Origin: a virus
Direction: 5' to 3' (one strand)
Virus record (IMG/VR): IMGVR_UViG_3300047510_000782
Span: 1-22,623 of that record
Length of the DNA: 22,623 nucleotides
In this document: positions 9,753-22,135 of the stretch, one piece after another
Position numbering within the stretch: position 1 is the stretch's first letter
How the letters are laid out: every line of letters starts with the position of its first letter
Made by a program: the position numbers and the translations under genes
Notes under the pieces: model-generated
Seen by the model: only the letters and a program-made list of their open reading frames with translations
What the model was told of the DNA's origin: nothing
The model's database searches: none

Positions 9753-10180
9753 CTAATTTCGGTTCTACCGTCACCCAAATTTTTTCTATTTAATCTACGC
9801 ACATCCGGATCGGCTTGCTCTTGTTCATAGTATTCCAAAACTACACTACGGCAAATTTCCTGAAACCAACGATCCACAATGTCAGATTCGGGCTCATTGG
9901 CCTGACGTTGATAGCCAGCTCTAACCAAATTGGCAATGAACTTGTCATTCCAATCTAGTTCAAATGCGCCAGACCTTAGATCATCAGGGTCCAAGCTAAA
10001 ACTAACTATGGTAACATATGGTTCACCTTGCTGAGTGGCCAATTCCTTGGCACTCAAGGTCTGTTTTGACCGACGCGGTGTTTTGGGTTTTGGTTTCGAC
10101 TCAGCAGGCAACGGTGTAGGGTGTTCAAGCCCTTGCGATCCTACGTTTAGTGCTCGTACTAGACGATCGAAAAAGCTCAT
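9749..10180 (-). CDS. Conserved T4-like phage protein, unknown function
   Basis: The product is 143 aa starting MSFFDRLVRAL at 10180, in an ATGA overlap with the queE stop; an upstream in-frame ATG at 10189 is less likely. Residues about 15-45 are Pro/Lys-rich and probably disordered. The folded part contains LATQQGEPYVTIVSFSLDP, then GAFELDWNDKFIANLVRAGY, then DIVDRWFQEICR and EYYEQEQADPD, and ends GDGRTEIS. This arrangement matches, from memory, an uncharacterised protein widespread in T4-like environmental phages. No active-site motif is evident. It ends the metabolic operon, directly before the RNase H promoter. Confidence 0.75.
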   Translation of the reverse strand: MSFFDRLVRALNVGSQGLEHPTPLPAESKPKPKTPRRSKQTLSAKELATQQGEPYVTIVSFSLDPDDLRSGAFELDWNDKFIANLVRAGYQRQANEPESDIVDRWFQEICRSVVLEYYEQEQADPDVRRLNRKNLGDGRTEIS

Positions 10181-11034
10181 GTTCCCCACTCGTTCTTAAA
10201 GAGCGGCACCTGAAGTCGATCACTGTATCGTAAGCCATGTTTCATGCAAGCTAGTGCCACGTTCTTGTTGTTCAAGCTATATACACTTTCAACACCGCCC
10301 ACTGGCATTAGATATACTTCGCCGTTAAAACCTGCGTTTCTGAATTCCATGGTAGCACGTAAGGCATCTTGTATGTCTTGTTCTGTGGCTACTACAAACT
10401 TGAGATAACACCAACCTATCTCTTGGTATTGGCATACAATGTCGGGTTTGATGGCATCTTCCCAACGCTCACCACTGGCAGGCAATTTTGCACTGATACT
10501 AAAAGTCAGGCAATCGCGTGAACGATCAGGATTGCGATTGGTCCATGCTATTAAATAGCGTTTAAAATCTGGTGTTAACTGTTGAGTACCATTGGTTTCA
10601 AAGGTTATTTCTTTGAGCCCCTGCATAAACTCATGCTCGAGCAAGTCTGGAAAAGCACGTTGCCAACCTAGCAAGGGTTCGCCGCCGGTAATAACTAAGT
10701 GTTCCCGGGTCCATTTATGAAACGGTAAGAGTTCTTTGATGCGTTCGACGATCGCCTCTGTTGTAAGTAACGGTGAAAGGTCCTTGAACCTAGGATCCCA
10801 ACTAGCGTAAGAATCACAACCGGTACTAACAAGTGGGAGATCTCGATACTGCTTAAACTCTGCAATACGATCTGCAACTTGGTTTCGCTCATTTGATTTT
10901 TCTCCTCGTGGCATTCCGAATCCGTCACAAGTGAAATTGCATCCAAATGTTCTTAGGAATACGCTAGGTACCCCCATGTATCGGCCTTCCCCTTGTACGC
11001 TATAGAATAGCTCACTTATTTTGATCTTGCTCAT
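10177..11034 (-). CDS. queE: 7-carboxy-7-deazaguanine synthase QueE (radical SAM)
   Basis: QueE converts 6-carboxy-tetrahydropterin to 7-carboxy-7-deazaguanine (CDG) with SAM and a 4Fe-4S cluster. The start ELFYSVQGEGRYMGVPSVFL, the GGEP motif (117-120), FETNGTQ and ISAKLP are all typical. The likely start is the ATG at 11034 (285 aa), four codons inside the longest frame. Its cluster motif is unusual: FGCNFTC supplies Cys32 and Cys36, but the third cysteine, in TGCDSYASW (Cys73, equivalent to the WCDT position), comes 36 residues later. The insert explains the length beyond the roughly 220 aa of typical QueE. It is coupled to its downstream neighbour by ATGA and overlaps the upstream gene by 23 bases. 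It works with FolE and QueD encoded upstream. Confidence 0.93.
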   Translation of the reverse strand: MSKIKISELFYSVQGEGRYMGVPSVFLRTFGCNFTCDGFGMPRGEKSNERNQVADRIAEFKQYRDLPLVSTGCDSYASWDPRFKDLSPLLTTEAIVERIKELLPFHKWTREHLVITGGEPLLGWQRAFPDLLEHEFMQGLKEITFETNGTQQLTPDFKRYLIAWTNRNPDRSRDCLTFSISAKLPASGERWEDAIKPDIVCQYQEIGWCYLKFVVATEQDIQDALRATMEFRNAGFNGEVYLMPVGGVESVYSLNNKNVALACMKHGLRYSDRLQVPLFKNEWGT

Positions 11035-11435: not shown

Positions 11436-11700
11436 ATATATTTGACCATTGTTTAAGTTTTAGTTTTTTGGCTGCTGTAGCAGCAACCAAGCGATCTCTG
11501 TCAACAATGCCTTGTTCTACCAGAATATCAATCATGGCTAATACATCTCCAATCTCTACTTCTAGGTGTTCGGCATTGGTAGCAGGTTTACCGGGTTTGA
11601 AGTTATCTAGGCCAAATCTAAAACATTTACTAACTGCCTGTGTAACTTCGGCGCATTCTTCTTGTAAAATTAACAGCGTTTCTCTAACTCGAGTATCCAT
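11422..11700 (-). CDS. mazG: MazG-like nucleotide pyrophosphohydrolase
   Basis: MazG-type enzymes split NTPs or dNTPs to monophosphate and pyrophosphate, and phage versions may adjust nucleotide pools or alarmones. The frame is open from 11784, but the recognisable domain starts at the ATG at 11700 (92 aa). The metal-binding pattern is present: EECAE (14-18, ExxE type) and EIGD (49-52, ExxD), in two helices separated by a Gly/Pro-rich loop (GLDNFKPGKPA). At 92 aa it is a single-domain protein of about the usual phage size. It overlaps the DadA-like gene's end by 17 bases and is in the middle of the deazaguanine operon. The substrate is unknown. Confidence 0.85.
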   Translation of the reverse strand: MDTRVRETLLILQEECAEVTQAVSKCFRFGLDNFKPGKPATNAEHLEVEIGDVLAMIDILVEQGIVDRDRLVAATAAKKLKLKQWSNIYENA

Positions 11701-12874
11701 TTGTAATCTCTTGTGTGATTTGTTTAGCAGTAAATGGAGCCAAGGTCCAACCAAGGTGTCCATGTCCAGTGTTATAGTATACACGTGAATTGCGTTGACT
11801 GCGACCTACTCGGGGCATCATGTTAGGTGTCATTGGTCGTAAACAAGCCCAACTTGAATGATCACTGGCGTCAATCTTGGGAAAGTTTTGATGTACCCAA
11901 CGCAGCAACGGTTCAATTCGGTCACGCCTGATATCATAATTTTCGCCAGCTAATTCAGCTGTACCAGCTACCCTGAATCGTCCACCAAAGTTAGCCGACA
12001 CAATCTTGGCTTGATCATCAAGCAGACTAGTTCTAGGCATGGCAGCATGTGAAGCTGCATCTTTGATGTTAATGGTAACACTATAGCCTTTTACTGGATA
12101 AATGTCTAATCTGTCGCCTATGCTACGAGCCAATGGTTCACTGCCAACGCCGGCACTGATTACTATACAATCGTGATAAAGAGACAGATCTTTAATGTCT
12201 GCTGTGTAACTGTATCTAAAAGTAGCATGATATTTGGTTTCTAGTATTGTTGCTAATTTGGTACAGAATTTGTGTATGTCACCGGTCCAATCTGATTCTG
12301 TATAAGCACCGCCTAGAATACTTTGACAATTATATAGAGTGGGTTCAATTTCACAAACAGCTCGTTGATCTAGAATTTCCCATTCGCAGCCATTGGCTCG
12401 GTACATTTCTTGTACCACAGTGGCTGCCTGCATGTATTCAGGATCTCGATAGATGTGTAGTATGCCGGAACGCATACGATCAAATTCAATGCCTTCGTCG
12501 CGAATAATTTCTTCATATAGATCTCTAGCTGCAAGACCCATGCGAATGGTTTCACCGGTATTTCGAGCATGATCATTGTTGGCGGTATGGTAGAGAAATT
12601 TAAACACCCAACGCAGTTGATCGGGATCTATACCGGGTCTAATCAATAATGGAGCGTCCTTTTTCAGCAACCACTTGACACCTTTGATGACATTGCCCCA
12701 GGTATTCCAAGTTTCACTGTTGCTTACACTAATTTGTCCGCCATTGGCATAACTAGTGCGCTGAGCAGGATATCTTTCCTGTTCGTAAACAGTGACTTGA
12801 CAGCCTGCTCTAGCTAGATAATATGCTGTGGTAAGGCCGGTTATCCCGGCCCCTACTACTGCTACTTGAGTCAT
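11684..12874 (-). CDS. dadA: DadA-like FAD-dependent amino-acid oxidoreductase
   Basis: The 396-aa protein matches D-amino acid dehydrogenase DadA (DAO family), which deaminates D-amino acids to 2-oxo acids. The FAD-binding GAGITG is at 8-13. YANGGQISVSNSETW, the WLLKKDAPLLIRP block, RPMTPNMMPRVG near the C-terminus and NTGHGHLGWTLA are all characteristic. Length is slightly below the bacterial enzyme (about 430). It is unusual as a phage gene. It is coupled by ATGA to the YhhQ gene and lies between yhhQ/queD/folE and mazG/queE, so it may modify the deazaguanine base or an amine substituent, or simply affect host amino-acid metabolism. The family is clear; the phage role and substrate are not. 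Confidence 0.88.
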   Translation of the reverse strand: MTQVAVVGAGITGLTTAYYLARAGCQVTVYEQERYPAQRTSYANGGQISVSNSETWNTWGNVIKGVKWLLKKDAPLLIRPGIDPDQLRWVFKFLYHTANNDHARNTGETIRMGLAARDLYEEIIRDEGIEFDRMRSGILHIYRDPEYMQAATVVQEMYRANGCEWEILDQRAVCEIEPTLYNCQSILGGAYTESDWTGDIHKFCTKLATILETKYHATFRYSYTADIKDLSLYHDCIVISAGVGSEPLARSIGDRLDIYPVKGYSVTINIKDAASHAAMPRTSLLDDQAKIVSANFGGRFRVAGTAELAGENYDIRRDRIEPLLRWVHQNFPKIDASDHSSWACLRPMTPNMMPRVGRSQRNSRVYYNTGHGHLGWTLAPFTAKQITQEITNGYSS

Positions 12875-13497
12875 TTTGCCTCTACTGGAGATTCAACAAG
12901 TTTCTTTTGAAGATGATTTAGTAACAGACCATAAGCTGGTAAGATCACTAACAAGCTAACAATGACTTTGCTAATCGAATTATTAGTAGCCACAATGTGC
13001 CAATTAGCAGCCATGAACTCGTTCTCTCCACCAGCAAATGCTGTGAAGAAGAATACATAAGTGTCAATAAATGTGCTGGCAATTGAACTCAATGCTGGTG
13101 CGATCCACCATGTGGTGTAACGCTCACGGAAGTATTGAAACACATATACATCAAGTAGATTACTGATAAAGTAAGCCATACCAGATCCTAGGCCAATTCT
13201 AAATGCCACAGAGTCCGGCGCTCCGCCTGCTTTGACTACCACCATACTGACCACAATGGCTGGAATAAACGCAAGAGCAATAACAGCACGCCCGGTTTCC
13301 TTGCCTAATAATCGTACAGTAAGGTCAGTTAGAACTACCACCAGTGGAAAGGTAAACGCTGCTGCTGCCAGAGGTGCACCAAACACTGTGAATTTGAATT
13401 GTACGATATAATTGCTAACAGCAATAATAATGATGTGTAGTAACATTAGTTTGTAGGCTAATGTACGATCCACACCTGCTAACATACGATCAAACAT
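12871..13497 (-). CDS. yhhQ: YhhQ-type queuosine-precursor transporter (VUT family)
   Basis: The 208-aa integral membrane protein fits the Vut_1/YhhQ family, which imports preQ0 and preQ1. About six hydrophobic spans are visible (near residues 15-32, 38-58, 70-90, 100-121, 128-152, 172-192). Characteristic blocks are the polar FTFPLVVVLTDLTVRLLGKETGRAV, SGMAYFISNLLDVYVFQYFRER and SSIASTFIDTYVFF (with conserved Asp, Asn and Thr in membrane). The family is found in other phages with deazaguanine DNA. GGAG is six bases before the ATG at 13497. It is coupled to the next gene by ATGA and separated from queD by 12 bases. It offers a salvage route alongside FolE-QueD-QueE. Confidence 0.9.
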   Translation of the reverse strand: MFDRMLAGVDRTLAYKLMLLHIIIIAVSNYIVQFKFTVFGAPLAAAAFTFPLVVVLTDLTVRLLGKETGRAVIALAFIPAIVVSMVVVKAGGAPDSVAFRIGLGSGMAYFISNLLDVYVFQYFRERYTTWWIAPALSSIASTFIDTYVFFFTAFAGGENEFMAANWHIVATNNSISKVIVSLLVILPAYGLLLNHLQKKLVESPVEAK

Positions 13498-13509: not shown

Positions 13510-14022
13510 TTATAGGCCTTCGAAAAGGTCTTCGTTCCATTCTCTATGACCTTCTCTGAAAGCCATATTACTCTGTGTCTCTCTTACTTCTACACGATAA
13601 CACCATAAACGATTGTGCTCGCCCAGTCCCCACATTTCGGGAATGTAAACACCATTGACATACTTGTAAAGCATGTCGGCTAAGCCTTCACAACCTAACT
13701 TAGGCAGTACTGTGAGTTTAGCAAGTTTCTTTGATTCCAGCAACTTGAATGTTTCGAACTCAGGGTCATCGCGGCTGACCAGTAAGGTATGATCAAATTG
13801 GTCTTCTAAGATCTTTTTGAGTTCCTTAAGGCCACCATAATCGGCAGCCCAATTGCGTACATCTAAGTCGTTGGTACCAAAGTAAAACTTCATTGAAAAA
13901 CTATAACCGTGTATCATGTTACAGTGACTATCTGCTCGCCACTGTCGATACGCACATGGAAAAGCATCGTGATACTCTTTAGTGCTGGTATATTTGTATA
14001 CTACTGGTTCAAACTTGGTCAT
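13510..14022 (-). CDS. queD: 6-carboxy-tetrahydropterin synthase QueD (T-fold)
   Basis: QueD turns dihydroneopterin triphosphate (made by FolE) into 6-carboxy-tetrahydropterin. The 170-aa protein has the pattern of a known QueD subfamily: FPCAYRQWRADSHCNMIHGYSFSMKF, then WAADYGGLKELKKILEDQFDHTLLV, then VLPKLGCEGLADMLYKYV, then a VRETQSNMA end. The catalytic Cys34 and His38 (CxxxH) are present, with Asp77/His78 in the DH pair. The usual HGH is HGY here (Tyr40), so the third zinc ligand is unclear; HGY is typical of this subfamily as I recall it. GGAG lies upstream of the ATG at 14022. A TCTAAATA candidate late promoter lies 43 bases before it. Confidence 0.92.
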   Translation of the reverse strand: MTKFEPVVYKYTSTKEYHDAFPCAYRQWRADSHCNMIHGYSFSMKFYFGTNDLDVRNWAADYGGLKELKKILEDQFDHTLLVSRDDPEFETFKLLESKKLAKLTVLPKLGCEGLADMLYKYVNGVYIPEMWGLGEHNRLWCYRVEVRETQSNMAFREGHREWNEDLFEGL

Positions 14023-14102: not shown

Positions 14103-14411
14103 TTAAACAGTTTTCATATGCTCTCGCAACTTATCCCAATCGATGTCAAAGGTAACTTTACCATCGTTGTCTACTGTGCGTACACTGTAGTTGCCTACAT
14201 GTACGCCAGGTTCTTCGGGTTTGACATCAAACACCTCAGTTTTAACCTTAGTAGGTTTTTTAGCCTTGGGTGCTGACTCTTGAACCTTTTGAGCAGTTTT
14301 CTTAGATACTGGACCATCGTCCTTGGGATAGTCGGTTTTAGCAGGTTTCTTGGCTGGAGCCTTAGCAGCAGGCTTTGCTGATGCTTTAGCAGCAGGTTTC
14401 TTAGTTGCCAT
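14103..14411 (-). CDS. AKP-rich histone H1-like phage protein
   Basis: The product is 102 aa from the ATG at 14411, which overlaps the folE stop as TAATG and has AAGGA upstream; the longer open frame from 14438 lies inside folE. Residues 2-30 are almost only Ala, Lys and Pro (KKPAAKASAKPAAKAPAKKP), like the tail of histone H1 or bacterial HU/AlgP-type proteins. A second Lys-rich stretch follows at about 40-60. The C-terminal part (GVHVGNYSVRTVDNDGKVTFDIDWDKLREHM) looks folded and acidic. Binding to DNA through the basic tail is likely from composition. Its place between folE and queD suggests it is made with the modification enzymes. Confidence 0.75.
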   Translation of the reverse strand: MATKKPAAKASAKPAAKAPAKKPAKTDYPKDDGPVSKKTAQKVQESAPKAKKPTKVKTEVFDVKPEEPGVHVGNYSVRTVDNDGKVTFDIDWDKLREHMKTV

Positions 14412-15157
14412 TATCCATGTCCTTTCATTGATAAGCAAATGTCGTAAAACTCTTTCTTCAGTGCTGGGTCTGACTCAAAAGCACCTAACATGATAGCAGT
14501 GGTCATGTCTGACTCATGCTCACGTACTCCACGCATGGTCATACAATGATGTTCAGCCTTCACTACGACGGCAATATTTTCGGTCTTGGCATAATCGCGG
14601 AGTGCAGACGCAATCTGTGTGGTCATTTCCTCCTGTATCTGCGGTCTCTCGCAGATGTGATGCACGAGCCTGTTGAATTTGCTCAAACCAATTACTTCGC
14701 CTTCGGGCACTATCCCCACCCAGCATCGTCCAACGATATTTTGAAAATGGTGAGCGCATGTTGATCTGATACTAATTGGTCCTGTGGTATAAAGGCTTTT
14801 ATAGCCCAAGTTGGGAAATGCTGTGACTTTAGGAACTGAACGATACCGTCCACTAAAAGTCTCACGTACAAACATCTTAGCCACACGCCTTGCAGTGTCT
14901 TGCGTGTTATGATCATTAACAGTGTCGATTACTAAACTATTTAGTACACCCTGAAATTGACCAGCTACCTCATCAACCAAGCGATTGATTTCTTCGTCGC
15001 TGTTGATGTAGTCTGCGATGTTGTCGTTAGCGTGGAATCTGGCTCCTGCTTGGCGGATCCTGTCACGAATTACTTCGCTCATGGGTCTACCAAATACAGC
15101 ACCTTCATAGCCAGGATGGTAAGGTGCTTCTTCTACTAGTTGTTGATTGTGATTCAT
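14411..15157 (-). CDS. folE: GTP cyclohydrolase I (FolE)
   Basis: FolE opens GTP to 7,8-dihydroneopterin triphosphate, the first step toward deazaguanine as well as folate. The 248-aa protein carries the zinc ligands: Cys134 and His137 in STCAHHF and Cys205 in EHHCMTMRGV, which correspond to Cys110, His113 and Cys181 of the E. coli enzyme. The block GIVPEGEVIGLSKFNRLV is diagnostic. The N-terminal 55 residues are longer than usual and variable. It is the first gene of the operon running to queE, after a sigma70-like promoter with an internal TCTAAATA. No strong ribosome site precedes the ATG at 15157 (GGAG lies about 5-8 bases upstream as CGGAG). Confidence 0.95.
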   Translation of the reverse strand: MNHNQQLVEEAPYHPGYEGAVFGRPMSEVIRDRIRQAGARFHANDNIADYINSDEEINRLVDEVAGQFQGVLNSLVIDTVNDHNTQDTARRVAKMFVRETFSGRYRSVPKVTAFPNLGYKSLYTTGPISIRSTCAHHFQNIVGRCWVGIVPEGEVIGLSKFNRLVHHICERPQIQEEMTTQIASALRDYAKTENIAVVVKAEHHCMTMRGVREHESDMTTAIMLGAFESDPALKKEFYDICLSMKGHG

Positions 15158-15201: not shown

Positions 15202-15230
15202 AGTGTACTGTATTTAGACAGATTTGTCAA
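15202..15230 (-). promoter_or_regulatory. Sigma70-like promoter of the folE operon with TCTAAATA in its spacer
   Basis: On the minus strand, TTGACA (15230-15225) is a perfect -35 and TACACT (15207-15202) a moderate -10, with 17 bases between. TCTAAATA (15218-15211) lies inside the spacer, flanked by CTGT/ACAG. The -35 box overlaps the galE stop codon. It gives the FolE operon a start separate from galE. Confidence 0.72.
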
Positions 15231-16216
15231 TTGTTATAATAGGTGTTTTTAAACCAATTAAATGTGGTACTGGCAATGTCTGCTATACTACTGTGGCGAG
15301 GACGCCAGGCTGTATCTTGCATGAACCTACGTGGATCTGCATATAATTGGTCTGGGTCACCCTCACGCCTTGGACCAAAACGCCAATTTAATTTGACACC
15401 AGCATAAGCAGCAACCTGTTCTAAGACTTCTTGATTGGTAAATCCACGTCCGGTGCCTAAGTTGTAGCTACGATGTTCACCTGCTTTAAAACCTTCTGCT
15501 AAACATACTGCTTCTAGATGAGCATCAGCTAAGTCAGAAACATGTATGTAATCACGCACACAGGTACCATCTTTGGTATCATAGTCATTGCCATTAATAA
15601 CAATTTCTCGACCACTTAGTGTACCATCTACCACACGGGTAAACAAGTGAGTTCCGTCTTGGGCTGAGCCCATGCGACCCTCAGGATCGCAGCCGGCAGC
15701 ATTAAAATAACGCAGACTGATACCTTTGAAACCCGATGCTCTACAATGATCTGCAATCACACGCTCAGTCATTAGCTTTGACCAACCATAGGGATTGATA
15801 GGCAACGATGAGTATGCAGAGCTTTCGCTTATTGGACAGTGTGCATAACTGCCATATACTGCGGCTGAACTACTAAACACAATACTACCAGACCAACCTT
15901 TACTGGCCAACCATCCTAGCATGCGATTGGTTTTAGCAGTATTATTGTTGTAGTACTCGCCAGGATCTGATATGCTTGGACCAACTAAACTAGTGCCTGC
16001 ACAGTGAATAATAGCACCGGCTTCTCTAAGTGGGGCACAGTAATCTACTATGTCCACAAAGTCGGTGCACAGAAATTCATCCAGGAAATTCACGCTGGCT
16101 GGGATAGTAACTGTGCGATCTACGCCGATTACTGTATAGCCTGCTTGTTTGAAACGTAAGGCAGTGTGCCCACCTACATAACCAGTGGCACCTGTGATAA
16201 TGATTGTTTTTGACAT
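15227..16216 (-). CDS. galE: UDP-glucose 4-epimerase-like protein (GalE)
   Basis: The 329-aa protein is an extended short-chain dehydrogenase of the GalE type, interconverting UDP-glucose and UDP-galactose with bound NAD. The Rossmann motif GATGYVG is at 9-15, the active-site Ser in FSSSAAVYG at 114-122, and Tyr143/Lys147 in PYGWSK. SLRYFNAAGCDPEGRMG, RDYIHVSDLADAH and YNLGTGRG fit GalE rather than dehydratases. Length is close to the usual 330-340. GGAGG lies four bases before the ATG at 16216. Its neighbour two genes upstream is a glycosyltransferase-like gene, so it may supply UDP-galactose (or GalNAc) for phage or host surface, or for DNA decoration. Confidence 0.92.
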   Translation of the reverse strand: MSKTIIITGATGYVGGHTALRFKQAGYTVIGVDRTVTIPASVNFLDEFLCTDFVDIVDYCAPLREAGAIIHCAGTSLVGPSISDPGEYYNNNTAKTNRMLGWLASKGWSGSIVFSSSAAVYGSYAHCPISESSAYSSLPINPYGWSKLMTERVIADHCRASGFKGISLRYFNAAGCDPEGRMGSAQDGTHLFTRVVDGTLSGREIVINGNDYDTKDGTCVRDYIHVSDLADAHLEAVCLAEGFKAGEHRSYNLGTGRGFTNQEVLEQVAAYAGVKLNWRFGPRREGDPDQLYADPRRFMQDTAWRPRHSSIADIASTTFNWFKNTYYNN

Positions 16217-16590: not shown

Positions 16591-17781
16591 TCAATATTTA
16601 GCTGGTGCCAGGTGCTTTCTATAGTCCTTGGTCATACGCAGCATATGCTCGCCTTTGCCTTCTAAGATATCACAGATACGATCGATGGTACCATCGTTGT
16701 AGTCACTGATCCGTCCCATGTTTTTATGTGGATGACGCAGCAGTGGAATTAACTTTTGTACAGCATCATCTAGGCTCCAAGGTACATAAAGTCGTTCGTG
16801 ATCATTGGCAAAAGTTTCAGGAAAGCTGCGATAAGCAGGATACAGAACATTAGCGCCAAGTGTGTCGGCTTCACTAACTGTGTTTGACACCCAATCTTGT
16901 AGAGCACAATTAAAAAGAACCCTAGTATCATTAAGTAGATCATAGTAGTCATTCTTTTCTAAGTCCTCATAAATGACCAATTTACCCTCTGCTTGTAACT
17001 TTCTAGTACGTTCCATATAACTTGCGTTATTACTACGTAGTTTGGCACCAGAAAACACAGCGAATTCTACCCAAGGCAAATAATCTAGGGTATCAGCAAG
17101 TGCATGATAGCGTTCGATTAGATCCATATAAAAGTCGGGCTGTTTTTCTTGATCCCAACGTGCCGCAAAGCCTACACGAAACGCACGATCTTCAAATGGT
17201 TTAAGTGGTCCTAGTACACGACCACGTACTTCATTCTTGCCAAATGCCAGACCAGAAATATTGTAGATTGGCGCCGACCAACCTGCAATCTTCATGTGTG
17301 CTACCATTTCTTCATTAGTGGCCAGCACACCTGTAACAAAGGAATTAACCATGTGCTCATAACAAGCCATCCAGCCTTCCATATTCCATACATGAACGAA
17401 GTCATCAGGGTCAATGGCTTGTGCAAGACAACGCACAAATATCCTAGGGCGATGAGTGGCGTCAACTTGATCGAGAATGTAAGGTAAGCTCTCGATGCCT
17501 GGTTGAAAAAGGTCTTCAAAGTAGATAACATCGTCACTGGTTACTGCTCCTGCTTTCATTAACTTGACCAAGTTCATCATTTGGCTCATGCCAAAGTAAC
17601 TGCGTCCGTGTGCGTCTAGCACCTGTCCAGTTACAATGGCTTGATCATTACTCAATGTTTCTCCCTCAACAATCAAGTAATTGATCCCTCTACGTTCAAA
17701 CACCGACCGATTCCACTCTTGTAATTGTAGAGTGTAACGAGCCTTATAGGGCTCTAGTCCCATGTAGAATAACCTACGCAT
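16591..17781 (-). CDS. Glycosyltransferase-like protein (probable GT-B fold)
   Basis: The first 42 codons of the longest frame lie inside the upstream gene; the likely start is the ATG at 17781 (MRRLFYMGLEPYKARYTL), giving 396 aa and an 8-base overlap. The N-terminal half has alternating strands and helices, with an IYFEDLFQPGIESLPYIL segment and HVWNMEGWM. The C-terminal half (VGFAARWDQEKQPDFYMDLI, then FNCALQDWVSNTVSEADTLGANVLYP) resembles the donor-binding half of GT-B glycosyltransferases, where a Glu in the SEA segment contacts the sugar nucleotide. I recall similar proteins in T4-like environmental phages annotated as glycosyltransferases. Donor and acceptor are unknown; galE nearby suggests UDP-galactose. 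Confidence 0.72.
   Translation of the reverse strand: MRRLFYMGLEPYKARYTLQLQEWNRSVFERRGINYLIVEGETLSNDQAIVTGQVLDAHGRSYFGMSQMMNLVKLMKAGAVTSDDVIYFEDLFQPGIESLPYILDQVDATHRPRIFVRCLAQAIDPDDFVHVWNMEGWMACYEHMVNSFVTGVLATNEEMVAHMKIAGWSAPIYNISGLAFGKNEVRGRVLGPLKPFEDRAFRVGFAARWDQEKQPDFYMDLIERYHALADTLDYLPWVEFAVFSGAKLRSNNASYMERTRKLQAEGKLVIYEDLEKNDYYDLLNDTRVLFNCALQDWVSNTVSEADTLGANVLYPAYRSFPETFANDHERLYVPWSLDDAVQKLIPLLRHPHKNMGRISDYNDGTIDRICDILEGKGEHMLRMTKDYRKHLAPAKY
16595..16602 (-). promoter_or_regulatory. Candidate late promoter (GCTAAATA)
   Basis: The minus-strand octamer GCTAAATA overlaps the last codons of the glycosyltransferase-like gene, about 20 bases before the ATG of the exported-protein gene. It shares the CTAAATA core seen upstream of folE, queD and the clamp gene. 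It encodes Ala-Lys-Tyr in the upstream gene, so coincidence is possible. Confidence 0.35.
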
Positions 17782-18004
17782 AGCGTCGGGCCTGCTTGAT
17801 AGCGTAACCCCAGTTATCGCGTGGGTACTTACCAGCTTGGTAACGCTGGAAATCAGCGTAAGGGCTGTGGTTGTTGCCAAGATGTGCTTCATTAAACACA
17901 TAGCCAAACTCGCGACAGAAGTCGCGATAACGATCTAACTCGTCAAAGATGCGTGTGACTTCGGGTTTGAATTGCAAATACTTCTTGATGCCTTTTCTAG
18001 ACAT
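17774..18004 (-). CDS. Small conserved phage protein of unknown function
   Basis: The product is 76 aa, basic and aromatic-rich. RKGIKKYLQFK is followed by a helix EVTRIFDELDRYRDFCREFG, then YVFNEAHLGN, SPYADFQRYQAGKYP and a basic C-terminus (YAIKQARRYA). The block LDRYRDFCREFGYxFxE followed by a Y-x-xFxxYxxGK pattern is one I remember from small genes in T4-like phages, with no function assigned. AAGGAA lies upstream of the ATG at 18004. It overlaps the glycosyltransferase-like gene by 8 bases and follows the T-fold gene after 11 bases. Confidence 0.7.
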   Translation of the reverse strand: MSRKGIKKYLQFKPEVTRIFDELDRYRDFCREFGYVFNEAHLGNNHSPYADFQRYQAGKYPRDNWGYAIKQARRYA

Positions 18005-18015
18005 TTCATTGTTCC

Positions 18016-18471
18016 TTATACTGAGATAAGTTGTGGTTGAGATTTATTATATGCGATTGTGGCACCATTCTCTCCGTCTTCGGCCACGGTGATTTCGATG
18101 TCACGATTGGGATAACGACTAGCAATGGCCTCATAAAGGTCATCACTGATCATTTCACAACTCTTGTAGTTTAGTTCCAACGTCCCGCCAGCATACAACT
18201 TTTCTAGCCAGCGTTTGAATTGGATAAACTCAATATCCCTGTCGTTGTGAAATACTTCAATAGCTACTGTAAAGTGAAAGATGTGTCTGTGTGGTGTTCC
18301 TAAGAACGAGACATCGTACTCGTCGCCAGTGGCTAAAGCCGGGTCTGTAGCTGCCGCTGGATATTTGTGAATACCTTCCTTGCGAAAAGTAACCCAAATC
18401 ATGCGACGAGCACGATCTCGAATACGAGCTCGTTGTTCTGTTAATGCCTGGTTTCGTTGTTGATTATCCAT
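18016..18471 (-). CDS. Second T-fold (QueD/6-pyruvoyl-tetrahydropterin synthase-like) protein
   Basis: The product is 151 aa. It follows the QueD plan: an early His in EGIHKYP (His35), an HxH pair in PHRHIFHFTVAIEV (His61, His63), an acidic strand-helix DIEFIQFKRWLEKLY, SCEMISDDLYEAI, and a C-terminal ITVAEDGENGATIAY. The three His could bind zinc as in QueD. The catalytic Cys of QueD that normally precedes the HxH pair is not visible, so the reaction may differ, or the protein may bind a pterin or nucleotide without QueD chemistry. Residues 1-25 are a basic helical extension. It is the last of four overlapping genes headed by dpdA (8-base overlap with the nuclease gene). Fold assignment is inference from pattern. 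Confidence 0.65.
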   Translation of the reverse strand: MDNQQRNQALTEQRARIRDRARRMIWVTFRKEGIHKYPAAATDPALATGDEYDVSFLGTPHRHIFHFTVAIEVFHNDRDIEFIQFKRWLEKLYAGGTLELNYKSCEMISDDLYEAIASRYPNRDIEITVAEDGENGATIAYNKSQPQLISV

Positions 18472-19027
18472 AAATTACAAGGTCTCTAAAGGTTGATGTA
18501 CTAGCGTTAATGATATTGATCATAGCTTTCTTGCTTAGTCTAATTTTATACGATTCTGTATCTTTATGCAACTCTGCATAGCAATATTGAGTTCCGTAAA
18601 TTGAGTCTGGTAATTTACAAGTCACATCTAATTTCCTGGCTTTATTTTGAATTTCTTCATAGCCAGTTTTAACCATGTCTTGAATAAAGTCAGGTGTGAA
18701 ATCATATACATCTACTGCTGTTACCACACTGTTTTCGTCAACTGTGACACGTATTTGATATTGTAATTTTGCTGCTACTAAACTATCTTTAAATGGAACC
18801 GTACACAAATCATAAAAATTCATCGAACCAATGGTATGACCGGATGTGGCATTGATGCGTCTTGATTTTAATTCAACTGCATATTCAGGAAAATCAGCTC
18901 CTGGGCCTCGATTAAGAGGCCAACCTTCTGATTCGAAATAATTGTGAATAAACACACCTCTAGCAGCATCATCACGAGGCATTTGTCGACCTATTAGGCC
19001 TGTTTTTACAGATTTAAGTTTTAGCAT
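18464..19027 (-). CDS. MutH/Sau3AI-like endonuclease
   Basis: The product is 187 aa. Residues 43-54 (GADFPEYAVELK) reproduce the catalytic core of MutH, where E. coli has a DFP-x-LGVELK sequence: Asp45, Glu52 and Lys54 have the same spacing as Asp70, Glu77 and Lys79. This is the PD-(D/E)xK nuclease site of the MutH/Sau3AI group, which cuts at GATC. The remainder has strands and helices with a Lys-rich C-terminus (YKIRLSKKAMINII), but no known DNA-recognition signature I can confirm. It is shorter than MutH (229 aa). It overlaps its neighbours on both sides within the dpdA operon. A role in degrading unmodified host DNA is inference; GATC specificity is not shown. Confidence 0.75.
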   Translation of the reverse strand: MLKLKSVKTGLIGRQMPRDDAARGVFIHNYFESEGWPLNRGPGADFPEYAVELKSRRINATSGHTIGSMNFYDLCTVPFKDSLVAAKLQYQIRVTVDENSVVTAVDVYDFTPDFIQDMVKTGYEEIQNKARKLDVTCKLPDSIYGTQYCYAELHKDTESYKIRLSKKAMINIINASTSTFRDLVIYG

Positions 19028-19521
19028 ACTTGATCTTTAGTGTATTGATCCCAGTCGGTGAAATGTTTAGAGTTCATTAAATCATGTACTCTATGACACC
19101 ATACACCAGGGTTGGTTGCTTCGAAATCTCGGTCGTCGATCTTTAATACTGCATTATAATTTAGTAACTCTATGTATGGTAGTTTAGCACTAATCATAGG
19201 AATAAATCTACGATATTCGCATAGGCCACCGTCATGAAATTCTTCCAAAGCTGATATATCTAGATCTAAAGTACACCAATACCCAGCATCTAGAAAAGGT
19301 TTTATCATAGTCTCCCAACTGCGCCAGGTATCAACTTCGGGCTTTTTCGGAAAACTTTGATTTGCGCCAAAGTAAATATGCTCACAACCTAGTAGGTGAG
19401 TTTTGATTTCATCAACAGGTTGTACACCTATAACAAATAAAGTCTGTTTGCCCAGGGCTGGAGTATGTTCTACTTCAATGCCATGGAAAAATTTCACCGT
19501 GTCAAATCCGGGTCTGTCCAT
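19021..19521 (-). CDS. Conserved protein of unknown function in the dpdA operon
   Basis: The product is 166 aa from the ATG at 19521, one base after the dpdA stop; the longer frame from 19563 lies within dpdA. It has a strand-rich layout: DTVKFFHGIEVEHTPALGK, TLFVIGVQPVDEI, GCEHIYFGANQSFP, YWCTLDLDISALEEF, FIPMISAKLPYIELL, NYNAVLKIDDRDF and NPGVWCHRVHDL. Several conserved-looking acidic and Cys residues could bind metal, and the alternation recalls half of a TIM-barrel, but I cannot assign a family. I remember similar hypothetical proteins in T4-like phages. Its position between DpdA and the nuclease makes a part in base exchange, target choice or immunity plausible, not shown. Confidence 0.75.
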   Translation of the reverse strand: MDRPGFDTVKFFHGIEVEHTPALGKQTLFVIGVQPVDEIKTHLLGCEHIYFGANQSFPKKPEVDTWRSWETMIKPFLDAGYWCTLDLDISALEEFHDGGLCEYRRFIPMISAKLPYIELLNYNAVLKIDDRDFEATNPGVWCHRVHDLMNSKHFTDWDQYTKDQVC

Positions 19522-19522
19522 G

Positions 19523-21073
19523 TTAAATCTCAAATAGTGAAGTGTTAAGGTCAGGTTCGGCACGTTCTTTCTTTACACGATCCACTGAAACTGAACCTTC
19601 AATTTCAATGTGTTGATCTGCTTGTGTGCGAGAATTCAGTGCCTTCTTGCCAGCGAAACCACGAGTACCTACAATCTGCATCCAGTATTTGTGATAGCCG
19701 GCGATAATAGCTTCGGACTCCTGTCTAGTAGGTGCAGCGAAAATAGCCTCTACAATATCTTCAAAATGATCGGCACCGGGCGCTTCATATTCCATCATGC
19801 GCGGTCTTGTTCCGGAATCAAATCTACGATTGGCTTCTTGCACTGCGGTAATATGCATCCAAACATTGTGTGACATCAGTAAACAATAACTGAAACTATC
19901 CCAACTGGTTCGACCTTCTTTGCCGTTTTTATTGAGATCCCCGGGCTTATAGTAACATATATCACGCATGGTGAGCAAGCTACTAATTGGACTATCCTGC
20001 CAACTTTCGAATATTTTGTCAGCTAGTACCCCAGTACTCCACTGACGTGTATCGGTTGCATATCGCTTATCGTCGGCACTAGGCGCCATTCGATAACTCC
20101 ATTTGTCCAAGTTGGGATAAGTGTTTTCGTAATAGACCTGGCCGTTAGCGGTTGCCAAGAATGGACTAGCACAGTCAAAGCTGATGGTGAAGTTGGGGTT
20201 TGCGTACTTGCGTATTGCTCGCTGTATGACTGTAAGTAATACCGCCCATTCGAGTTTACTGGTTCCCAAAAAGTGCATCCAATCATGTATACCCTCCTGT
20301 AATAATCCATCGTATTTAAGTGCAACTAGCCTTTTGAGAATAAGTTCAACGTCGCACATGTTTTGACCGCCCATGGCCCAACCATCAAAATGGCGTCCTG
20401 GGTATTGCTTGGGATCTGAGTAGTGCTTCATGATTTGATACCATGATTCGGCACTGGTATGGTTATCACCTTGTAATACATTGAGAAAACGTGCACCACC
20501 ATTGGCCACACCGCGACGATTATTGATAAAATATTCGTTGTTGAACTTGGTAGCATCCACAGCTTCGGTTAGTGTGCTGATTTTGCAAGCAGCACTGGCC
20601 TTTTTATCATGAATAACCCAGGTAGGAATATCTAAAATCATGCCATAGTCCGAAATGCTGTCAAGCCATTTCAACACTGACTCGCGTTTGTGCTGTGCTC
20701 GAGCACATCCAGAATTGGCTTTCCAATCACCTTCCCAAAGTCCTTTGGCAATCTGGAACCCACCCGAATCACCTAGCATGAATGTGCCTGATGCTCGATT
20801 ACGTACCATGTCCTCAGACCAATCCTGTTTGGTTAAATCCAAGTTGGCATGGCCTCCTGAATACAAACTCCACTGATATGTATACAGACCTTGTTGAGCA
20901 TTTAACCAATTTAGCTGCTCCATGTCTGTGAGCCCTTGTGGAAAACGTGCAGGATCCACATAAGGACCTGTTACAGGATCACGCTGTTTCCCTATAAAGG
21001 TAGCATAGAAACCAGAAATAGCCGGCAGAAACACGGCATAGTCCTTTTGTTTAGCTGTTAGATTGTCTTGCAT
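19523..21073 (-). CDS. dpdA: DpdA, 7-deazaguanine DNA transglycosylase (TGT family)
   Basis: DpdA exchanges guanine in DNA for a 7-deazaguanine base; it is related to tRNA-guanine transglycosylase (TGT). In this 516-aa protein the TGT landmarks are visible in order: GDSGGFQ (101-107, base-binding Asp102), ILDIP (Asp148), VLQG (Gln201), GWAMGG (231-236) and SFDCASP (298-304) with the nucleophile-position Asp300. The CxCxxC zinc motif of TGT is not seen, and the C-terminal 200 residues are unlike TGT, as in a DNA-acting enzyme. AGGAAG lies upstream of the ATG at 21073; the start overlaps the previous gene by 23 bases. It is followed after one base by an unknown gene and then the MutH-like nuclease. 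Which deazaguanine it inserts is unknown. Confidence 0.9.
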   Translation of the reverse strand: MQDNLTAKQKDYAVFLPAISGFYATFIGKQRDPVTGPYVDPARFPQGLTDMEQLNWLNAQQGLYTYQWSLYSGGHANLDLTKQDWSEDMVRNRASGTFMLGDSGGFQIAKGLWEGDWKANSGCARAQHKRESVLKWLDSISDYGMILDIPTWVIHDKKASAACKISTLTEAVDATKFNNEYFINNRRGVANGGARFLNVLQGDNHTSAESWYQIMKHYSDPKQYPGRHFDGWAMGGQNMCDVELILKRLVALKYDGLLQEGIHDWMHFLGTSKLEWAVLLTVIQRAIRKYANPNFTISFDCASPFLATANGQVYYENTYPNLDKWSYRMAPSADDKRYATDTRQWSTGVLADKIFESWQDSPISSLLTMRDICYYKPGDLNKNGKEGRTSWDSFSYCLLMSHNVWMHITAVQEANRRFDSGTRPRMMEYEAPGADHFEDIVEAIFAAPTRQESEAIIAGYHKYWMQIVGTRGFAGKKALNSRTQADQHIEIEGSVSVDRVKKERAEPDLNTSLFEI

Positions 21074-21407
21074 CTTCTTCCTGACATAGTGCTTCCATTA
21101 TTTTAAACTTTTCCCAGGTGTCACGCAAGCCAGGATGACGCTGTATACGCTCATTTAGTTCACGTTCTTGTTGCATCTTGGTCATTGCCCAGCTTAGTGC
21201 ATCTTGTGCTTCTGTGGTTAGTGCAATGGAGGTATTATTAGCATTTAGGCTACGCCAACTTACACCATCATTGACTTCCATGTCATTGATGTTGGTGTTC
21301 CAACGTAGCTGTCCTGCGCCAACAGCACCCGGGCTCATATATGGATAGTTGTTGTATCCACCGTTAACAACAAGGTATGGACCTTGTGAAACCAGGCTTT
21401 TAATCAT
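21051..21407 (-). CDS. Small phage protein with tail-fibre-like N-terminus and coiled-coil C-terminus
   Basis: The product is 118 aa. Residues 1-55 contain a virion-like segment (GQLRWNTNINDMEVNDGVSWRSL), a pattern common in phage fibre and other surface proteins. From about residue 63 on it is helical and charged (EAQDALSWAMTKMQQERELNERI and on), probably a coiled coil ending in a Glu-rich tail. The mix suggests a small structural or scaffold-like protein; I recall similar hypothetical proteins in T4-like phages. Its ATG overlaps the clamp stop (ATGA), and its own 3' end overlaps the dpdA start by 23 bases. Confidence 0.68.
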   Translation of the reverse strand: MIKSLVSQGPYLVVNGGYNNYPYMSPGAVGAGQLRWNTNINDMEVNDGVSWRSLNANNTSIALTTEAQDALSWAMTKMQQERELNERIQRHPGLRDTWEKFKIMEALCQEEDARQSNS

Positions 21408-22135
21408 TTCTGTAGTGCAGGAATAGTATAGCTGTACAACGCCAGACCCGAATCAACTGTGATTTGTGCAGCACCTTGATCGCTGAACCGCAACATTTTG
21501 TCACCGGGTAATGCTAAAATGGTGTTAAACACTGCCACTGGCCATACACGATTAGCATTTAATTTACCCGAGATACCTTGATGAAACACAAAGTCTCCGG
21601 CATGACTGCTTTTGTCACCAAAGTGAAACTCTAGTTTGTTGCCATTGGTTTTGGCAATAAAGCTGGTTTCTTCGCTGTTGGCTTGGCTTTGGAATCGCAT
21701 GCGTTGAATACTGCTTACAGCAGGTTCAATTTCAATATCCCAAGGCACACCACGGAATTTAACTGATTTGAGCTTTTCGTTGATCACGCTGGCTACCATG
21801 AAACGATAGTTGTTCTTGAAGTCACCATCGCGATTTTCAAAGTCAATGCCGCAGGGAATCATATCGCCATTGGCGTCTTTCTGACGAGCAATGCTAAGTC
21901 TAGCATCTTCTTTGTACTCAGGAATGTTTAAGATAACATTTAGCTTGCTGAGATTGGGCATACCAAATACGCCAACAAAGTCTGCAATAGCATGGTGCAG
22001 GCGTGCATCTAAAATCACGCTGCGATCATCAGCCACAGCATTAATCATGGTATCTTTGTCGTCACCGGTGACCTTTAATAACTCAATGCCTAGTCCATTG
22101 GTGTGTTGAACTATGTCATGTAGTGCGTCTTTCAT
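21404..22135 (-). CDS. 45: gp45-like DNA sliding clamp
   Basis: The 243-aa protein is close in length to T4 gp45 (228 aa), the trimeric clamp that tethers the polymerase and, in T4, activates late transcription. Repeating beta-rich segments are visible: NAVADDRSVILDARL, then a helix AIADFVGVFGMPNLSKLNVILN matching the gp45 layout, then RMRFQSQANSEETSFIAKTNGNKLEFHFG and ANRVWPVAVFNTILALPGDKMLRFSD, ending SGLALYSYTIPALQ. It sits directly downstream of a gp43-type polymerase gene, which strongly supports the call. AAGGATCAAAC precedes the ATG at 22135, and a promoter with an internal palindrome precedes it. Identity is from pattern and context. Confidence 0.8.
   Translation of the reverse strand: MKDALHDIVQHTNGLGIELLKVTGDDKDTMINAVADDRSVILDARLHHAIADFVGVFGMPNLSKLNVILNIPEYKEDARLSIARQKDANGDMIPCGIDFENRDGDFKNNYRFMVASVINEKLKSVKFRGVPWDIEIEPAVSSIQRMRFQSQANSEETSFIAKTNGNKLEFHFGDKSSHAGDFVFHQGISGKLNANRVWPVAVFNTILALPGDKMLRFSDQGAAQITVDSGLALYSYTIPALQK

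Follow-up and report, generated by a model that had tools for sequence, protein, structure and literature searches.

A DpdA-like DNA-guanine transglycosylase, a 166-aa protein, a QueD-like protein, a 76-aa open reading frame (ORF) and a GT-B glycosyltransferase form a conserved core whose members co-occur in aquatic phage contigs, and in a minority of cassettes a gene for a predicted nuclease of the MutH/Sau3AI type lies within this core. The window, by which we mean the whole stretch of DNA analyzed, spans a virus record of 22,623 bases; dpdA and the 166-aa, nuclease and QueD-like genes all lie on its minus strand (Table 1). There is close to an even chance that the locus is a DNA hypermodification cassette whose accessory nuclease spares base-exchanged DNA and cuts unmarked DNA, in analogy to DenA/DenB of phage T4. 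Precedents exist separately for deazaguanine marking of DNA, for nucleases with the MutH fold and for phage nucleases that leave modified DNA intact. The literature on phage DpdA, with a key 2023 paper and a 2024 review outside the scope of our search, yielded neither a pairing of DpdA with a MutH-type nuclease nor a description of the nuclease family. Phages with deazaguanine marks are known to be protected from host restriction; a dedicated nuclease within a marking cassette would imply that the mark also serves some phages for attack. Further candidates for study in the cassette are a protein that may replace QueC, an apparent DNA glycosyltransferase, and the 166-aa protein, which is found with this type of DpdA in nearly all of the aquatic phage contigs examined.

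Organization of the DpdA cassette

The gene positions and junctions given by an earlier, sequence-only reading of the locus were reproduced exactly: dpdA and the 166-aa gene are separated by a 1-base gap (19522), the 166-aa and nuclease genes overlap by 7 bases, and the nuclease and 151-aa QueD-like genes overlap by 8 bases. The start codon of the 166-aa ORF is taken as the ATG at 19521; initiation at a GTG further upstream would yield 180 aa. Among the 80 best related viral loci, dpdA was followed by the 166-aa gene in 78 and the 151-aa gene was present in 70, which argues that the arrangement is not due to chance; loci without the 166-aa or 151-aa gene mostly stop at a contig edge. The proposal of a four-gene unit was correct as to order and junctions but too narrow, since the conserved unit extends further, to the 76-aa ORF and the glycosyltransferase gene (16591-18004), which come next in most DpdA cassettes. 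Elsewhere in the window, an ORF for a D-amino acid dehydrogenase-like flavoenzyme (11684-12874; NF009074, E=2.5e-136), an unusual cargo for a phage, lies between the transporter gene and a MazG-like ORF.

Table 1. Coordinates and assignments of the window features discussed in the text
Feature	Position	Strand	Remarks
Sliding-clamp-like gene	21404-22135		Upstream of dpdA; resemblance to T4-type clamps
dpdA, DpdA-like DNA-guanine transglycosylase, 516 aa	19523..21073	-	TGT-type motifs DSGGFQ and FDCASP
166-aa conserved protein	19021..19521	-	Adjoins DpdA in 78/80 loci
MutH/Sau3AI-fold endonuclease, 187 aa, ADFPEYAVELKSR	18464..19027	-	Predicted fold and active site; optional, variable slot
QueD-related 151-aa protein (phrog_17812)	18016..18471	-	Candidate CDG decarboxylase (DpdL)
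76-aa conserved ORF	17774..18004	-	Between QueD-like gene and glycosyltransferase gene
GT-B (GT4-like) glycosyltransferase	16591..17781	-	Conserved cassette partner
NAD-dependent sugar epimerase (GalE-like)	15227..16216	-	Possible donor supply for glycosyltransferase
FolE, GTP cyclohydrolase I	14411..15157	-	
QueD (CPH4 synthase)	13510..14022	-	Catalytic Cys and DHT motif present
YhhQ-like 7-deazaguanine precursor transporter	12871..13497	-	
QueE radical-SAM CDG synthase	10177..11034	-	

DpdA and the deazaguanine pathway

The DSGGFQ and FDCxxP motifs, which contain the catalytic Asp residues of the TGT family (the second being the nucleophile), were conserved in the alignment of the DpdA family, and the FDCASP region aligned at low confidence with the FDCVMPT nucleophile region of E. 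coli Tgt (hhalign E=0.0015, probability 17%). The 516-aa protein received no assignment from Pfam (including TGT), PHROG or NCBIfam and no profile match in the PDB. Its search matched 563 viral contigs, and relatives with 28-36% identity were encoded by Pseudomonas phages of the PA5oct/Paride group, Vibrio phage 2.275.O and Sinorhizobium phage Phosso.

FolE, QueD, QueE and a YhhQ-type transporter were encoded in the same window as DpdA, and QueE was found in 19 of 22 related phage records. Several distinct radical-SAM-like ORFs per genome were seen in records G002-G006, an unusually large number; one contig of 332 kb had as many as eight in addition to QueE. The phage pathways described previously likewise have FolE, QueD, QueE, YhhQ and a DpdA-type transglycosylase in one region (Hutinet et al., 2019; PMC6884629). 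The phage studied here differs from them in that a QueD-like protein is present and QueC was not found, and in the addition of a GT-B glycosyltransferase, the 166-aa protein and, sometimes, a MutH-fold nuclease. Phage DNA that carries a DpdA modification is protected from restriction enzymes (PMC6884629).

Judged from the protein families, FolE, QueD and QueE would make 7-carboxy-7-deazaguanine, from which the QueD-like protein, acting in place of QueC, would most likely remove the carboxyl group. DpdA, according to its motifs and gene context, would then swap guanine in the phage DNA for the product, and the GT-B glycosyltransferase may decorate that product further.

A QueD-related protein in place of QueC

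The 151-aa protein is a member of phrog_17812 and had no match in Pfam. The sequence-only reading had called it a second QueD-like T-fold protein. Similarity of its profile to QueD was confined to 41 C-terminal columns (hhalign probability 83%), which lends the T-fold label weak support; three His and one Glu that resemble the zinc and substrate ligands of QueD are kept in the family. The identification as a second QueD was rejected, since the 151-aa family lacks the catalytic Cys and Asp-His of QueD, whereas the family of the QueD that the phage also encodes has them.

The protein was present in 21 of the 22 phage records, many of which are fragments, and the sole record with a full-length QueC match, that of Vibrio phage 2.275.O, was without it; partial or weak matches to the QueC profile were obtained in three records (G008, W07 and G018). 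The 151-aa protein is more likely to be a QueC replacement that makes the base than a second QueD, as its residues and distribution suggest. It co-occurs with FolE, QueD and QueE and without QueC, as is the case for DpdL, a QueD-like protein of QueC-less phages that make CDG. DpdL was reportedly proposed by Cui et al. in 2023 as a CDG decarboxylase that yields 7-deazaguanine. The 151-aa protein fits this description and is a candidate DpdL.

Glycosyltransferase, sugar genes and the 166-aa protein

Glycos_transf_1 was matched by 8 of 11 members of the glycosyltransferase family (best E=8e-12), the family profile matched a solved group-1 glycosyltransferase (E=8e-4), and in 16 of 20 records the gene adjoined either dpdA or the gene for the QueD-like protein. 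The conservation of this gene suggests a glycosylated deazaguanine product; plain 7-deazaguanine as the base would offer the sugar no obvious attachment point.

Homologues of the 166-aa protein are encoded by Pseudomonas phage Paride and Acidovorax phage ACP17. A fold search of the PDB gave no convincing match, and a search of a viral library matched the ACP17 homologue alone. Genes of the Gfo/Idh/MocA and alcohol dehydrogenase types were located directly upstream of the 166-aa gene in loci L139, L135, L115, L143 and L186, and the same dehydrogenase pair precedes the 166-aa gene of Paride (L089) in a separate locus, hinting that the 166-aa protein is part of a sugar pathway. At locus L064 (G005:69554-69952), the 166-aa gene was matched as two adjacent pieces in one 145-aa frame, with the middle missing.

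Predicted fold and active site of the nuclease

The AlphaFold model of the 187-aa protein (pLDDT 89.5, pTM 0.82) matched MutH-DNA complexes in Foldseek (best 2aoq, E=9.4e-7, probability 1.00, TM 0.65) and Sau3AI (7xm0, probability 0.98-0.99), with DpnI among the weaker matches. The active site, D45-x6-E52-x-K54-S-R, has the spacing of MutH, and 16 of the 17 relatives in the alignment retained the pattern D-x6-[E/D]-x-K-[S/T]-R, whereas the remaining one (L118) had a variant spacing. The fold and the D-x6-E-x-K site are thus shared with MutH and Sau3AI, whereas identity is low (13-16% to MutH and 10-11% to Sau3AI). The gathering score of Pfam MutH was not reached by any member; three of the 17 gave weak matches (best E=0.019) and the 187-aa protein itself gave none. 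According to the model and the conserved site, the protein is a PD-(D/E)xK nuclease of the MutH/Sau3AI type. The sequence-only prediction of a MutH-type nuclease, which the lack of such a fold would have contradicted, was borne out.

GATC is the target of both MutH and Sau3AI, which cut it where Dam methylation is incomplete or regardless of Dam methylation; DpnI needs methylated GATC. A nuclease that, like the Type IV enzymes, cuts differently modified DNA such as that of rival phages, and not unmodified DNA, would be at home as a mobile accessory among phages with modified DNA and would agree with the match to DpnI. This role is distinctly improbable, as the strongest fold matches are to the two enzymes that do not need methylation and such a nuclease would have to leave DNA with the phage's own marks uncut.

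MutH is a strand-discriminating nickase, and its being the closest fold raises the alternative of a replication or repair enzyme that nicks new strands before base exchange, in mismatch repair, recombination or packaging. Base exchange after replication would leave new strands briefly unmarked, as such an enzyme would require. We consider this function improbable, given that the nuclease occurs in a small minority of cassettes and that neither MutS nor MutL was noticed among the window ORFs. Nor was a cognate methyltransferase found among the scanned window proteins or noticed beside unlinked nuclease relatives, so that the phage nuclease, unlike MutH and Sau3AI, was seen without a MutS/MutL or methyltransferase partner. 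Classical Type II restriction-modification systems, in contrast, have a cognate methyltransferase beside the nuclease. Pattern scans and single-sequence tblastn found no relatives of the nuclease in annotated phage records, in plasmids (one query) or in cellular genomes.

Linkage of the nuclease to the cassette

The nuclease was present in 4 of 70 complete dpdA loci, representing three lineages, and always between the 166-aa and QueD-like genes. The same slot in other dpdA loci was empty or was occupied by a ~100-aa protein (19 loci), radical-SAM proteins (8 loci), a methyltransferase, an SDR or other proteins. A search that started from the nuclease rather than DpdA gave 86 loci, which formed 35 clusters at 90% identity. 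Of these, 29 occupied the slot described above within a DpdA cassette, with the nuclease gene immediately following the 166-aa gene in 26. The 29 of 35 represent enrichment and not a population estimate because the loci are fragments and the searches began from a cassette member. The linkage is one-sided: the nuclease is optional in the cassette, yet it is mostly found in that slot. A survey of gene neighborhoods therefore upholds the proposed linkage when viewed from the nuclease and not when viewed from DpdA. The fixed four-gene operon of the sequence-only reading was abandoned, the nuclease being an optional insert at a position where unrelated cargo is otherwise found. The idea that the nuclease is random cargo was weakened by the placement of most clusters in one slot. 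The preference for this slot in most carrier lineages suggests that the enzyme may cut DNA without the mark.

Selection, exchange and site avoidance

Values of dN/dS for near pairs of the nuclease were about 0.06 to 0.33, well below 1, which indicates that the coding sequence is under purifying selection. Pairwise distances of the nuclease tracked those of DpdA weakly (Mantel r=0.28, p=0.002, compared with 0.59 for the 166-aa protein), and in several pairs the synonymous divergence of the nuclease was far below that of the neighboring gene. The weak tracking implies that the nuclease moves between cassettes and, together with purifying selection, that it is functional but partly swapped among them.

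These patterns also bear on the main rival reading, a slot-specific mobile or homing nuclease, which would cut empty cassettes, be copied by recombination into the space that separates the 166-aa gene from the QueD-like gene and have no part in DNA marking. Presence/absence polymorphism at one exact position, the variable cargo found there, the weak co-inheritance and the pairs with low synonymous divergence all fit such an element, which accounts for presence/absence and swapping about as well as a self-sparing nuclease does. Homing is nonetheless rather unlikely: the fold and motif are typical of restriction and repair enzymes, no significant match to a homing family was obtained in Pfam or PHROGs, and relatives outside the cassette adjoin unrelated genes instead of this slot.

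GATC was not avoided in the window (126 sites found, 96 expected), and nuclease carriers and non-carriers were alike in this respect (1.11 vs. 1.14). Protection by site avoidance was unsupported, as nuclease carriers showed no marked shortage of any palindromic tetramer relative to the comparison group. If GATC is the target, the phage would need another form of protection, and guanine exchange would be the first to consider.

Possible role as a self-sparing nuclease

In the proposed scheme, the nuclease, translated between the 166-aa and QueD-like proteins, would cut a G-containing site unless the guanine has been exchanged, and it would degrade host or competing-phage DNA while the phage's own DNA is spared. 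In phage T4, DenA and DenB cut host DNA, and phage DNA modified with hydroxymethylcytosine is spared. The two systems would work alike, although the protein families are unrelated as far as known, and T4 incorporates a modified nucleotide, whereas the DpdA cassette would exchange the base after synthesis. More tentatively, the cassette may be a compact phage restriction-modification system in which self is marked by conversion of guanine to a (possibly glycosylated) 7-deazaguanine rather than by methylation and one small MutH/Sau3AI-fold enzyme destroys unmarked DNA. The bacterial dpd island, as far as it is described in PMC12707154, is restriction-associated with 7-deazaguanine as the mark (Thiaville, 2016). 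By the same description it is a multi-gene system with a separate restriction cluster, in contrast to a phage cassette with one small nuclease.

A self-sparing nuclease is supported by the fold and site, the 29 of 35 clusters in the slot, the low dN/dS, the fact that no methyltransferase gene was seen adjoining it in the window, the QueC replacement and the glycosyltransferase. The negative scans for nuclease relatives among annotated phages, plasmids (one query) and cells also favor it, as do the abundance of GATC in the window and the protection from restriction enzymes that the DpdA mark confers (PMC6884629). It is weakened by the lack of the nuclease in most DpdA cassettes, the acceptance of unrelated cargo by the slot, the low Mantel correlation, the six clusters without DpdA, the equal non-avoidance of GATC in phages without the nuclease and the weak homology between the DpdA and TGT profiles.

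Nuclease relatives outside the cassette

The six nuclease clusters without DpdA on the DNA examined all lie on fragments; three have a MazG-like gene as a neighbor, and in two the neighbor is ParB-like. Nuclease relatives in L124, L191 and L197, contigs on which no DpdA was detected, directly follow the MazG-like gene and precede a structural gene. A ParB-like protein precedes the nuclease relative in L116 (4039-6040) and L118 (4504-6585), and in L116 an HNH-type ORF comes after it.
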